Shown here: positions 57,988-64,000 of the stretch, one piece after another
How positions within the stretch are numbered: the stretch's first letter is position 1
How the letters are laid out: each line of letters opens with the position of its first letter
Assembly: GCF_013410105.1 (NCBI RefSeq)
Contig: NZ_JACCCJ010000003.1
Span: forward strand, 62,001 to 126,000
Direction of reading: 5' to 3'
DNA: 64,000 bases
Source: Sphingopyxis sp. JAI108
GTDB taxonomy: Bacteria; Pseudomonadota; Alphaproteobacteria; Sphingomonadales; Sphingomonadaceae
Notes under the pieces: generated by a model
Seen by the model: only the letters and a program-made list of their open reading frames with translations
Database searches by the model: none
What the model was told of the DNA's origin: nothing
Position numbers and translations under genes: made by a program

Positions 57988-58629
57988 ATGTCCGACGATC
58001 GCGTCGATTTCGCCTCGATGCTGGCCTCGCGCCTGTGTCACGATCTTCTGAGCCCGGTGGGGGCCTTTGCCAACGGCCTCGAACTGCTCGCGGACGAGAA
58101 GGATCCCGAAATGCGGGCCCGGTGCATCGATCTGCTCGAACAGAGCGCGCGCACCTCGGCGAACAAGCTCAAATTCTTCCGCCTCGCCTTCGGTTCGGCA
58201 GGCGGCTTCGGCGAATTCGTCCCGGCCGATGAAGCCAAATCGGCGATCCAGGGCATCATCGGCGACCGCGCGATCGAGCTGAACTGGATGATCGGCGCCG
58301 AACCGCTGCCCAAGCCCGCGGTCAAGATCATCCTCAACCTGTCGCTGCTTCTCGTCGATGCGCTGGTGCGCGGCGGACGGCTCGACATCGGCTGCGAAAA
58401 GCAGGGGGAGGGCATCGAGATCGCGCTGCATGTCGAGGCCGAACGCATCTTCCTCGACGCCGACGTCGAGCGCATCCTTGCCGAAGGTGAGGGCGCGACC
58501 GCGATGACCTCGCGCACCGCGCCCGCGGTACTGGTGCAGGCGGTCGCGCGGCAGAACGGCGGCACTGTGATGCTCGCGCGCGAGACGCCGACCTCGCTGC
58601 TGGTCGGCGCGGTGCTTAGGGGTAACTGA
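57988..58629 (+). CDS. chpT: Histidine phosphotransferase ChpT
   Basis: A 213-residue ChpT, which relays phosphate from the CckA kinase to CtrA and CpdR in alphaproteobacteria. The phospho-accepting His is H18 in SRLCHDLLSPVGAFANG. The rest is a degenerate HATPase-like domain without ATP-binding N/G boxes, as in Caulobacter ChpT. In sphingomonads this relay controls motility and other CtrA outputs, which suits its place near the che operon. The ATG at 57988 gives the family N-terminus. Confidence 0.92.
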   Translation: MSDDRVDFASMLASRLCHDLLSPVGAFANGLELLADEKDPEMRARCIDLLEQSARTSANKLKFFRLAFGSAGGFGEFVPADEAKSAIQGIIGDRAIELNWMIGAEPLPKPAVKIILNLSLLLVDALVRGGRLDIGCEKQGEGIEIALHVEAERIFLDADVERILAEGEGATAMTSRTAPAVLVQAVARQNGGTVMLARETPTSLLVGAVLRGN

Positions 58630-59977: not shown

Positions 59978-62413
59978 ATGGTGAAGCCTCAGTTTTTGGG
60001 GCGCACCGATACGGCGATGGACGATCTGCTGAACGACTTTTTGGCCGAAACGGCAGAAATCCTGGCCGAAGCGGGCGGGGCGATCGTGGCGTGGGAGGCG
60101 GATCCCGCCGACCGCGCGCAGCTCGACGCCATTTTCCGCTTCGTGCACACGATCAAGGGCAGCTCGGGCTTCCTCGCCTTGCCGCGCGTCACCGCGCTCT
60201 CGCACGCCGCCGAGGACGCGCTCGATCAGGTGCGCCGCGGCAACCGTGTCGCAGATGCCGCGCTCGTCACGGCGGTGCTCGGCGTCGTGGACCGGCTGAA
60301 CGACCTTTGCGCCGCGCTCGGGCAGGATGGAACCGAACCGGCGGGCGACGACCGCGACGTGATCGGCGCGCTCGCCGAACGATCGGCCGACGACGACGCG
60401 CGGCTTGAAATCGCTGGTGTTCCCCTGCGCAGGGAGGACGACCTTGGCGCCGACCTGCAGAGCTGGCGCTCGATCCGCGTTCCGTTGCCGTTGCTCGACA
60501 GCGTGATGACGGGCGTCACCGACATCGTGCTCGCGCGCAACGAATTCGCCCGGATGCTGCGCGAATCGGGCGCCGACCTTTCGCTGATCGCCTCGTTCGA
60601 CCGCCTCTCCGATTCGATCGCCGGCATGCGCCAGTCGGTCAGCCAGATGCGGATGCAGCGGATCGACAAGCTCTTCGCGCCGCTGCCGCGGATCGTTCGC
60701 GATCTTGCCCAGGAAATGGGCAAGAAGATCGCTTTCCAGACGAGCGGCGGCGAGGTCGAACTCGATCGCGAGATGATGGAGAATATCCGCGATCCGTTGA
60801 TCCACATCGTGCGCAACGCGATCGATCACGGTATCGAACCGCTCGAGGATCGCGTCGCGGCGGGCAAGGAGATCACCGCGACGATTTCGGTATCGGCGCG
60901 TCAATCGGGAAACCAGATCGAGATCGAAATCCGCGACGACGGCCGCGGGCTCTCGCCCGATGCCCTTGTCGCGAAAGCCGTTGCGGCGCGTCTCGTCTCC
61001 GCAACCGAAGCGCGTGCGCTGGGGCCGAAGGAAAAGCTCGAGCTGATCTTCCGGCCCGGCTTCTCGACGGCTGCGACGGTCACCGCCATCTCGGGCCGCG
61101 GCGTCGGCATGGACATCGTCAAGGCGAACGTCGAAAAGATCGGCGGCGTCGTCGAACTGCGCAATGACGAGGGCCGAGGCCTGACGATCCTGCTTCGCGT
61201 GCCGATGACGCTGACGATCATTTCGGGCCTGATGGTGCGCGCGGCGGGGCAATATTTCGCCATCCCGCGCGGCGCAGTGCGTGAAATCCTGCTCGAAGGC
61301 GGCGATAGCGTGCGCATCGACCGGATCGGCGGCGGCGAGCTTGCGACGGTGCGCGGCGAGCAATATCCGCTGCTCCGCCTCGAAACCGCGCTCGGCCGCG
61401 GGCGCCATCATGGCGACGACCTCGACGATCGCGCGCTTGTCATCGTCCGGCCGGGGCAGGGGCAAAGCTACGCGCTGAGCGTCGCGGCTATCCACGATCA
61501 TGAGGAGTTGGTGATCAAACCGGCGGCGCCGATGATCATGGCGACGGGGCTGTATGCGGGGACCACGCTACCCGACAACGGCCGCCCCGTGCTGCTGCTC
61601 GACGTTCAGGGCCTGCTCGCCGCCGCGGCGATCGATGCGAACGAAGCGGGGCGCGGCCGCGACCGTGCCGCCGAAGTCGAAGCCGAGGCGGTGGCGGCGC
61701 GCAACGCAGCGCAGTTGCTGCTTTTCCGCGACACGAACGCCCGCATTCGCGGGGTGCGCCTGTCGGTGATCGAGCGGGTCGAAGAAGTGCCGGCATCGAG
61801 CCTGTTCGAAAGCGCGGGGCGGATCCAGGCCCGGATCGGCGACGATATCTTCCCCGTTCATGCGGCGACCTTGCCGGGCGGCGAGGGGACGCTGAAGCTG
61901 CTTCGTCTCTACGACGGGCAGGCCGTGCTCTGTTATCCGATCGCCGAGGTGATCGACATCGTCCGCCTGCCCGACGCGGTGCAACCCTCGGCCGCGCCCG
62001 GACTGATCGCCGGTGTCGTGCTCGTGGGCGGCGAGCCGGTCGAGCTCATCGATCCCTTCTGGCTGATGGAGCAATATGCCCGAGATGCGGCCGCGGCACC
62101 GTCGCTGCGCCAGCCGGTGTGCCGCCTTGCCGACGATCGCGACGGTTGGGGCGACCATTTCCTCGCCCCGATCCTGCGCAGCGCCGGCTATCGCGTGATC
62201 GCGGACGGCGACCCGTCCAACGAGGCGGCGGACGTCCTCCTCTGCCTGACCGGAGACGGCGAAATCTGCCCGCACATCGAGTGCGACGTGCCGGTGATCC
62301 GCCTGCGCACGTCGATCGCCGCGACGGGGCCCGAGGACGAAAGCGTCTATCGTTACGACCGCCAGGCGCTGCTCGACGCGATGCGCCGCAGCGTCGGGGG
62401 AAGGGGGCAATGA
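59978..62413 (+). CDS. cheA: Chemotaxis histidine kinase CheA (extended C-terminus)
   Basis: An 811-residue CheA. The HPt domain (about 1-115) has H57 in FVHTIKGSSGF. No P2 CheY-binding domain is evident, and the P3 dimer helices follow near 165-240. The HATPase domain shows the N box HIVRNAIDHGIEP and the G boxes DDGRGLS and GRGVGMDIVK, and a CheW-like P5 domain starts near MTLTIISGL. A second CheW-like region (about 575-690) and a receiver-like tail (about 705-805) come after it. The tail has DVLLCLTGDG where a receiver keeps its phospho-Asp strand. ATG 59978 was chosen; a TTG at 59969 and an ATG at 60017 are alternatives. It overlaps cheW by 4 bp. Confidence 0.93.
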   Translation: MVKPQFLGRTDTAMDDLLNDFLAETAEILAEAGGAIVAWEADPADRAQLDAIFRFVHTIKGSSGFLALPRVTALSHAAEDALDQVRRGNRVADAALVTAVLGVVDRLNDLCAALGQDGTEPAGDDRDVIGALAERSADDDARLEIAGVPLRREDDLGADLQSWRSIRVPLPLLDSVMTGVTDIVLARNEFARMLRESGADLSLIASFDRLSDSIAGMRQSVSQMRMQRIDKLFAPLPRIVRDLAQEMGKKIAFQTSGGEVELDREMMENIRDPLIHIVRNAIDHGIEPLEDRVAAGKEITATISVSARQSGNQIEIEIRDDGRGLSPDALVAKAVAARLVSATEARALGPKEKLELIFRPGFSTAATVTAISGRGVGMDIVKANVEKIGGVVELRNDEGRGLTILLRVPMTLTIISGLMVRAAGQYFAIPRGAVREILLEGGDSVRIDRIGGGELATVRGEQYPLLRLETALGRGRHHGDDLDDRALVIVRPGQGQSYALSVAAIHDHEELVIKPAAPMIMATGLYAGTTLPDNGRPVLLLDVQGLLAAAAIDANEAGRGRDRAAEVEAEAVAARNAAQLLLFRDTNARIRGVRLSVIERVEEVPASSLFESAGRIQARIGDDIFPVHAATLPGGEGTLKLLRLYDGQAVLCYPIAEVIDIVRLPDAVQPSAAPGLIAGVVLVGGEPVELIDPFWLMEQYARDAAAAPSLRQPVCRLADDRDGWGDHFLAPILRSAGYRVIADGDPSNEAADVLLCLTGDGEICPHIECDVPVIRLRTSIAATGPEDESVYRYDRQALLDAMRRSVGGRGQ

Positions 62414-62847
62414 TGGAAAGGCTCTATCTCGTCGCGCGCATCGCCGACACGCGCGTGGCGCTCCGCAGCCGCGCGATCCATTCGGTCGTCACCGTCGGCG
62501 CGCCGGTGGAGGTGCCCGGTGCACCGCCGCATGTCGCGGGCCTTTTCGCGCTGCGCAGCCGCGTGTTCACGCTGATCGACCCGCATGTCGTCATCGGCCT
62601 TTCGGCGGTGCCGGTCGTTCCGGGCCAGCGCGTGATCGTCGTCGAGGTCACCGAGCATGGCTATGCGCTGCTCGCCGACGAAATCGAGGATGTCTGTTTC
62701 ATCGAGGCGCCCGAAACGCGCGTCACCGGAAAGCTGCTTCCGGGCTGGGCGCGCGTCGCTGATGCGGTGATCGAATATGACGGCGCCTCGCTGCTCGTCG
62801 TCGACCCGTCCAATTTTATCACGCTGCCGGCCTTAAAGGCGGCATGA
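62410..62847 (+). CDS. cheW: Chemotaxis coupling protein CheW
   Basis: A 145-residue CheW-domain protein, the adaptor between CheA and chemoreceptors. The VPGAPPHVAGLFALRSRVFTLIDPHV segment corresponds to the conserved VPxxPxxVxGxxNLRGxVxPxxD block. The start is one of two adjacent ATG codons (62410 or 62413); the first overlaps the cheA stop as ATGA and has AAGGGGG upstream. Confidence 0.9.
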   Translation: MMERLYLVARIADTRVALRSRAIHSVVTVGAPVEVPGAPPHVAGLFALRSRVFTLIDPHVVIGLSAVPVVPGQRVIVVEVTEHGYALLADEIEDVCFIEAPETRVTGKLLPGWARVADAVIEYDGASLLVVDPSNFITLPALKAA

Positions 62848-62923: not shown

Positions 62924-63298
62924 ATGTCGAAATCTTGTCTGGTCGTCGATGACAGCAAAGTCATTCGCAAGGTCGCGCGCCATATCCTTGAAAGCATGTC
63001 CTTTGCCGTCGAAGAGGCGGCCGATGGCCAGGAGGCGCTGACCTTCTGCCGCGCCAATCGTCCCGATGTCATCCTGCTCGACTGGAACATGCCGGTGATG
63101 AGCGGGATGGAGTTCCTCGGCGCATTCAACGACCTCGACTATGGGCGCGAAGAACGCCCGCGCGTCGTTTTCTGCACGACCGAAAACAGCATCGACCATA
63201 TCCGCGCCGCGATCGAAGCCGGAGCGGACGAATATGTGATGAAGCCGTTCGACCGCGAAACGCTCGAAGGAAAGCTGCAGCTCGTCGGCATCGCTTGA
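62924..63298 (+). CDS. cheY: Chemotaxis response regulator CheY
   Basis: A 124-residue single receiver domain. D9 and D10 (VVDDS), the phospho-acceptor D53 in LLDWNMP, the switch Thr in FCTTEN (T85/T86) and K107 in MKPF form a full active site. The 76-bp gap after cheW ends in GGGGGTCGGAG before the ATG. It is the likely output of CheA towards the flagellar motor or, with ChpT next door, towards other pathways. Confidence 0.94.
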   Translation: MSKSCLVVDDSKVIRKVARHILESMSFAVEEAADGQEALTFCRANRPDVILLDWNMPVMSGMEFLGAFNDLDYGREERPRVVFCTTENSIDHIRAAIEAGADEYVMKPFDRETLEGKLQLVGIA

Positions 63299-63308
63299 GG
63301 TTTTGCCC

Positions 63309-64000
63309 GTGGCCCAGCCGCAACCCCGAATTCCGGATATCGAGCCGACCGCCCGCACCGTGCGCGTGATGCTGGTCGATGACAGCCTCGTCGTTCGCAG
63401 CATCCTCGAACGGATCGTCGACCAGCGGCCGGGTCTCAAGATCTGCGCCTCGGTCGCTTCGGCGCACGACGCGCTCGACTATCTTTCGCGCGAGCCCGTC
63501 GATGTCGTCGTGCTCGACGTCGAGATGCCGGGCATGAACGGAATCGACGCGCTGCCGCACATATTGGAACGGGCCGAAAAGGCGCGAGTGCTCATCCTCT
63601 CGTCGAACTGTGTCGAAGGCGGCCCCGCGGCCATCGAAGCCCTTGCGCTGGGCGCCAGCGACACGCTTGCCAAACCGGGACGCGGAAGCTTTTCGGGGCG
63701 TTTCGCCGAGGTGTTGACCGAGCGGATCATGACGCTCGGCCATCTGCAGGATCATCCGGCGCCGGTGCCTGTCGCCGAACGTCAGGCGCCGGCGCCGGTC
63801 GCGCTCGCGATCGATACCGACCAGCCGGTCGAGTGCATCGCGGTAGCGGCATCGACGGGCGGCATTCCCGCCTTCACCAACTTCCTCGCTCACCTCGATC
63901 CGCGGATCAGCGCGCCGATCCTGTTGACCCAGCATTTGCCCGACGCCTTCATGGAATTTTACGCGAAGCAGATCGGGATGATGACGGCGCGCCGCGTGTG
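63309..64000 (+). CDS. cheB: Protein-glutamate methylesterase CheB (cut by window end)
   Basis: The first 230 codons of CheB are visible. An N-terminal receiver (D24, D25 and D70 in VVLDVEMPGMNG) is joined by a Pro/Val/Ala-rich linker to the methylesterase domain, with the nucleophile S182 in AVAASTGGIPAF and H209 in LLTQHLPD. It removes methyl groups from chemoreceptors when phosphorylated by CheA. The start is a GTG 10 bp after the cheY stop. The final third lies outside the window; cheR may follow there. Confidence 0.93.
   Translation, partial: MAQPQPRIPDIEPTARTVRVMLVDDSLVVRSILERIVDQRPGLKICASVASAHDALDYLSREPVDVVVLDVEMPGMNGIDALPHILERAEKARVLILSSNCVEGGPAAIEALALGASDTLAKPGRGSFSGRFAEVLTERIMTLGHLQDHPAPVPVAERQAPAPVALAIDTDQPVECIAVAASTGGIPAFTNFLAHLDPRISAPILLTQHLPDAFMEFYAKQIGMMTARRV

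Follow-up and report, generated by a model that had tools for sequence, protein, structure and literature searches.

The chemotaxis kinase CheA encoded near the right end of the stretch of Sphingopyxis DNA analysed here (64,000 nucleotides, hereafter the window) continues for about 262 residues (550–811) after its P5 domain, which raises the question of what this long tail is, where it comes from and what it may do. A sequence-only reading had proposed that the tail holds a second CheW-like region followed by a pseudo-receiver, in a CheA lacking the typical P2 domain, and that the pseudo-receiver could replace P2 in docking CheY or CheB, or sense something by itself. The view that the tail is a degenerate receiver borne by a two-CheW CheA is well supported by the results reported below. 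What the first reading overlooked is the origin of this domain, an altered form of a known receiver that two-CheW CheA proteins carry and that is ordinarily phosphorylated.

CheA proteins that carry a receiver besides a pair of CheW domains, such as those of Azorhizobium caulinodans and Azospirillum brasilense, form the F5 class, which is marked by the duplicated CheW in 99% (PMC10782961; this and all other statements from this source draw on excerpts of it). In A. caulinodans, the receiver of CheA is required for Hpt dephosphorylation, and deletion of CheW2 together with the receiver is as harmful as deletion of cheA, while the receiver of H. pylori CheA works as a phosphate sink (PMC10782961, excerpts). 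No description of the pseudo-receiver was found among the literature matches listed, and the word beginnings "sphingo" and "degenerate" are absent from the text of PMC10782961, names of the Novosphingobium type escaping such a search.

Domain architecture of CheA

The cheA gene comes first in the order cheA-cheW-cheY-cheB-cheR (Table 1). Its start may be the ATG at 60017 (residue 14) instead of the one at 59978, since most orthologs align from about residue 12–13. The protein has a complete histidine kinase core, P1, P3, P4 and P5 all scoring above the Pfam cut-off. The His box of P1 is present in the 110 orthologs of the family, and a pattern search recovered the N, G1 and G2 boxes of P4 in 109, 100 and 110 of them, respectively.

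Table 1. Features of the cheA locus, with positions in the window
Feature	CheA residues	Position	Strand	Basis and remarks
chpT-type gene		57988-58629	+	PF10090, E 8.2e-27; closest solved ChpT 4fmt/4fpp
cheA	1-811	59978..62413	+	ORF, 811 aa
P1 / Hpt	16-113	60023..60316	+	Pfam; phospho-accepting His box present
P1-P3 linker	114-162	60317..60463	+	Pfam boundaries; little room for P2
P3 dimerisation domain (H-kinase_dim)	163-224	60464..60649	+	Pfam
P4 ATPase (HATPase_c)	272-411 (Pfam match)	60791..61210	+	Pfam
P5, first CheW domain	417-549	61226..61624	+	Pfam
W2, second CheW domain	579-698	61712..62071	+	AF2, VIA, ortholog-tail profile
Pseudo-receiver	714-810	62117..62407	+	AF2, VIA, hhalign, HMM control
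Trp724, replacing the invariant Phe of intact receivers	724	62147..62149	+	residue counts
Leu757, phospho-Asp place	757	62246..62248	+	hhalign alignment, residue counts
Arg777, conserved Thr/Ser place	777	62306..62308	+	alignment, residue counts
Tyr-Arg-Tyr-Asp-Arg motif	791-795	62348..62362	+	Arg792 at the catalytic Lys place
cheW		62413..62847	+	Pfam; start overlaps the cheA stop
cheY, complete receiver		62924..63298	+	Pfam
cheB		63300..64000	+	start approximate; continues beyond the window, followed by cheR and an amidase-like gene

As the sequence-only reading had noticed, the typical P2 is missing. Indeed, Pfam gives no match to this CheY-binding domain in the window CheA, and the P1-P3 linker, of about 50 residues here and of 36–79 residues in 107 of the 110 orthologs, is so short that it leaves little room for one. 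A P2 concealed in the linker was rejected by Pfam for the window and by length for the window and 106 other orthologs (L097, L098 and L099 being the exceptions). The intact-receiver relatives show the same absence, by linker length, in seven cases out of nine, and P2 is lacking from nearly 52% of CheA proteins as well as from most receiver-bearing CheA (PMC10782961, excerpts).

A second CheW domain followed by a receiver fold

The first half of the tail, W2, stays under the Pfam cut-off in the window (15.8 bits versus 23.5). The AF2 model of residues 556–700, built with 64 relatives, reaches a pLDDT of 90.5, and its nearest solved folds according to VIA are CheA P5 domains (Z 15.3 over 117 residues, 2.2 Å), then CheW, which bears out the second CheW-like region of the first reading. 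(L177 was left out of alignments A3 and A4, and A4 comprises 64 of the 79 available loci.) A profile made on the tails alone found W2 in all 110 orthologs, including the 12 in which no receiver domain follows it; compared with the PDB sequences, the W2 profile gave no CheW match.

Behind W2, from which it is separated in the window by about 15 residues and which it always follows, lies the pseudo-receiver. The structure prediction of the tail, which the sequence-only reading had proposed as a check, gave a receiver fold: the AF2 model of residues 696–811 (79 relatives; pLDDT 79.6, pTM 0.69) has the order β1-α1-β2-β3-β4-β5-α5, with β1 at 714–718, α1 at 724–735, β2 at 739–742, β3 at 753–758, β4 at 773–777, β5 at 790–791 and α5 at 795–810, and is devoid of helices 2, 3 and 4. 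The best match of VIA-align 2 has a Z of 10.8 over 99 residues at 3.2 Å, and 49 of the 50 matches listed are response-regulator entries, judged by title, among them entries such as PhyR and MicArec, which we take to be response regulators. Foldseek returned no match at E <= 0.001 (best 1.2e-3); its top five rows are weak matches to receivers, NAD-kinase and TIR folds appearing lower in the list.

The domain escapes the usual sequence profiles. The Pfam receiver family (PF00072) is matched by none of 80 members and is not among the 11 families touched at E <= 10, and the pseudo-receiver profile compared with the PDB sequences gives only insignificant matches, to CheY (best E 0.22). hhalign aligns the profile of the pseudo-receivers with that of the nine intact receivers found at the same position in relatives at 97.6% and E 2.6e-12, and with an HMM made from these nine receivers, all 89 pseudo-receivers outscore all 890 shuffled tails. 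Model, fold matches and profile comparisons thus concur on the pseudo-receiver that had been proposed. A sequencing or frameshift artefact was also rejected as the source of this tail, which is conserved in 89 family genomes.

Residues lost and kept

The segment DVLLCLTGDG, formerly read as the phospho-Asp strand, does correspond to β3, but the phospho-Asp place in it is occupied by Leu757. Asp is found at this place in a single pseudo-receiver out of 89 (L038), versus nine of the nine intact receivers. The catalytic Lys, present in the nine intact receivers, is replaced by Arg in all 88 pseudo-receivers with letters at this place; the Asp that follows it is kept in 88/88 and the next Arg in 81/88. 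The conserved Thr/Ser place holds Arg in 59 of the 89 pseudo-receivers and Thr or Ser in nine, and the acidic pair is poorly kept (Asp or Glu at both places in 11/89). Just after this pair, the Phe found in 9/9 intact receivers has become Trp in 89/89 pseudo-receivers. Residues invariant in the 80-row alignment are Cys715, Trp724, Pro731, Gly737, Tyr738, Arg792-Tyr-Asp-Arg795 and Leu798. Since the phospho-Asp is absent, the pseudo-receiver should not be a phosphate sink, and, judging from these residues, it should no longer act as a step of Hpt dephosphorylation either.

Origin and distribution of the pseudo-receiver

The orthologs considered are the 110 fetched from the 150 genomes with a match, the remainder being other CheA types, partial sequences or sequences left out (for example those of G073, G179, G121 and G147). 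Their tails are in three states: 89 carry the pseudo-receiver, 12 end after W2 and nine carry a full receiver. Intact receivers were recognised by reading the tails and confirmed by residues, absence of a receiver was called from tail length, and L101, which runs off the end of its contig, was counted as a pseudo-receiver. In the tree, pseudo-receiver and no-receiver rows together form one clade of 101 members with a single origin. The domain is retained in 89 of them, and the no-receiver state requires about six changes, at least four of which fall on well-supported branches. The receiver chemistry was lost a single time, at the root of this clade, to which the window belongs, and the ancestral state is the phosphorylatable receiver of a two-CheW (F5-type) CheA.

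Other families of the class agree with this polarity. A full receiver motif is found at the C-terminus of 27 of the 30 best class loci from other families (96 genomes), in a sample skewed to intact receivers because the query itself carried one; L234 and L235 end before the receiver, and L239 fails the motif pattern with part of the motif visible. A quick tree was made with 34 of the 101 clade members, 29 class relatives (L235 out), the nine intact family members and 12 other CheA. It places the 34 clade members inside the two-CheW group, with six intact family members out of nine as neighbours (SH-aLRT 100). The 34, the 29 class relatives and the nine intact family members group together against the 12 other CheA (SH-aLRT 100), in a tree that has no named F5 reference sequences. 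In the same quick tree, the stem leading to the window's clade measures 1.2 changes per column for the kinase core, such long branches calling for caution. This stem corresponds to a burst of change that affected CheA in its entirety around the period when the receiver was altered.

Three intact-receiver loci, L094, L097 and L098 (from G040, G056 and G052), cluster with CheA proteins from other families and, among the 110, have the sole genomes with CheZ; their CheA may be either a kept ancestral copy or the product of a transfer. Two small genomes of the window's genus also stand apart: in L078 (G181), the receiver is wholly absent and the branch is very long, and in G572 a partial profile match lies at C5:476400-476516 (E 2.0e-5) in an ORF of 785 aa. 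In G087, the profile of the pseudo-receiver has a second match, a weak one (C2:608876-609034, E 2.8e-4), in a separate ORF of 265 aa.

Searches with the single sequence matched three of the 289 class genomes, each of them a member of the same family (there are four family genomes among those listed). The profile search gave matches in 18/289 class genomes and 62/147 order genomes. The matches that fall outside the family are weak, most of them spanning the first half of the domain within long ORFs (with G492, 23–108, as an exception), and they are putative intact receivers.

Selection and possible roles of the pseudo-receiver

The ratio pN/pS was calculated between four species of the window's genus, G560 being dropped as a near copy of G042. 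It amounts to 0.44 (0.31–0.56) for the whole pseudo-receiver versus 0.47 (0.34–0.61) for the P1-P3 linker, to 0.25 for W2 and to 0.15–0.16 for P4 and P5, about one third of the value of the pseudo-receiver. As a whole, the pseudo-receiver is thus no more constrained than the P1-P3 linker by this measure. Within the domain, values are 0.29 (0.12–0.46) for β1-α1-β2 and 0.33 (0.12–0.69) for β5-α5, both with wide ranges, 0.36 for β3, 0.65 for β4 (0.00–3.52, very wide) and 0.49–0.56 for the loops. The three linkers reach 0.47, 0.55 and 0.89, the last being that between W2 and the receiver. What speaks for a function is the set of frozen residues, and not pN/pS. The fixed replacement residues suggest a new role in preference to decay, and the repeated deletions fit either a dispensable role or decay.

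Helix 1 and the β5-α5 loop are the elements by which receivers bind their Hpt or kinase partners. Because these two elements survive in the pseudo-receiver, would correspond to its Hpt-binding face and have P1 as their natural partner in cis, it can be proposed that the domain has become a non-phosphorylatable docking module whose candidate partner is the P1 of the same CheA dimer. We put this reading first, albeit tentatively. Helix 1 and the β5-α5 loop would contact P1 and this contact would gate the movement of P1 between the kinase domain and CheY/CheB, W2 would couple the pseudo-receiver to the receptor array, and the domain would tune the kinase. It would do so without being essential, since several lineages have dropped it. 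A variant to which we give little weight is that the domain reads phospho-P1: it would bind the phospho-His, or some other acidic or phosphoryl moiety, but would not take over the phosphoryl group. This is conceivable because Arg777 and Arg792 stand at the Thr/Ser and Lys places while the Asp is gone. Such a reader would keep P1~P bound or present it and would control the flow towards CheY/CheB, in a system devoid of CheZ and of an internal sink.

The strongest rivals to docking on P1 are slow decay and a purely structural role. According to the former, the receiver became functionless after the loss of its phosphosite and is eroding, with deletion as the end point. The six or so deletions, a pN/pS like that of the P1-P3 linker, the values of the loops and the high value of the linker that precedes the domain are all in line with this, but retention by 89 of 101 clade members, replacement residues that are invariant or nearly so over a deep clade and the receiver score still reached by all 89 make it rather unlikely. 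The latter, a cap that packs on W2 or on neighbours in the array and aids array geometry without any contact with P1, CheY or CheB, would explain the short linker to W2 and the constant position behind it; as W2 stands alone in 12/12 orthologs without receiver, this too is unlikely.

The other explanations are considerably weaker. Docking of CheY or CheB in place of P2, suggested by the first reading, draws on the absence of P2 from the window and, by linker length, from 107/110 orthologs, yet this loss is ordinary among CheA proteins and, by linker length, also affects most intact-receiver relatives. Moreover, the 12 of the 110 orthologs that lack both P2 (by linker length) and the pseudo-receiver have cheW, cheY and cheB adjoining in 12/12 each, with cheY and cheB at separate places in all 12, so that a substitute for P2 is improbable. 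Pseudo-receivers elsewhere bind small molecules, and the Arg-rich corner of this one could hold an anion; nevertheless, among the 80 members searched, ligand-binding Pfam families are matched in a few at most, and a sensor of its own ligand or metabolite seems very improbable. Finally, the lack of any Pfam receiver match in the 80 members might suggest an unrelated alpha/beta domain acquired independently. Such an origin is barely credible in view of the position of the domain, the hhalign result, the Asp-Arg kept after the Lys place, the fold and the shuffle control.

Signal termination and comparison with known systems

Phosphatases that could compensate for the loss of the sink are rare. 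Pfam detects CheZ in four of the 199 family genomes. Three of these four have an intact receiver, and none is among the 101 of the window's clade. Therefore, CheZ does not substitute in this clade for the lost phosphate sink. Above the Pfam cut-off, CheX was found in 3/199 genomes and CheC in 6/199; within the clade, either CheX or CheC is present in four genomes (G011, G031, G144 and G171). At these Pfam thresholds, 97 of the 101 genomes are thus devoid of CheZ, CheC and CheX and have no intact receiver on this CheA. The clearing of CheY~P in these bacteria could possibly rely on spontaneous hydrolysis, on a phosphatase that escapes recognition or on a second CheY.

CheV is a coupling protein made of CheW and a receiver. 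The succession of W2 and a receiver fold reproduces its domain order, but the module of the window is fused to CheA and has lost its phosphosite. The closest likeness is with the F5 class (PMC10782961, excerpts), which shares P1-P3-P4-P5, a second CheW and a C-terminal receiver fold, and among whose architectures the window's clade nests. In contrast with F5 proteins, the receiver of the window is shortened, lacks the phospho-Asp and the Lys, does not conserve the acidic pair and is unseen by Pfam. As the second CheW was kept and the C-terminal phosphorylatable receiver lost, descent from the F5 class is claimed here, but not full likeness to it. The CheA of H. pylori similarly combines a C-terminal receiver fold with the absence of P2, but its receiver is phosphorylated, unlike that of the window CheA, which has no phospho-Asp, and the excerpts of PMC10782961 report no second CheW for it. 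Cereibacter sphaeroides CheA3, an inactive kinase with Hpt and P2-like domains, also keeps non-catalytic remnants of signalling domains inside a CheA; its kinase domain and extra Hpt are altered, whereas in the window CheA the receiver alone is (PMC10782961, excerpts).

Globally, the chemotaxis kinase of much of the family carries a domain invisible to Pfam, and profile surveys would record these proteins as CheA without a receiver. The coexistence of intact, altered and deleted forms in related species provides a natural series on the roles of CheA receivers beyond phosphate.

Gene neighbourhood of cheA

A genome-wide Pfam search found two genes with a CheW domain, the cheA described here and cheW, and three receptors. 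Upstream of cheA, the window contains a gene for a ChpT-type cell-cycle phosphotransferase, and a chpT gene is close to cheA in 70 of the 80 named loci (E <= 1e-5). The apparent link with the state of the receiver, chpT being close to cheA in 8/9 intact-receiver loci versus 0/6 loci without receiver domain, was rejected. One large sub-clade accounts for 10 of the 12 no-receiver rows. Of its rows, 39 extend 400 bases or more upstream of cheA, and chpT was found beside cheA in none of them, irrespective of the state of the tail; chpT therefore follows descent. Past the right end of the window, sequence reading places a gene resembling N-acetylmuramoyl-L-alanine amidase genes after cheR (L004:6119-7033), and an amidase-like gene lies downstream of cheA in 72 of the 80 named loci.
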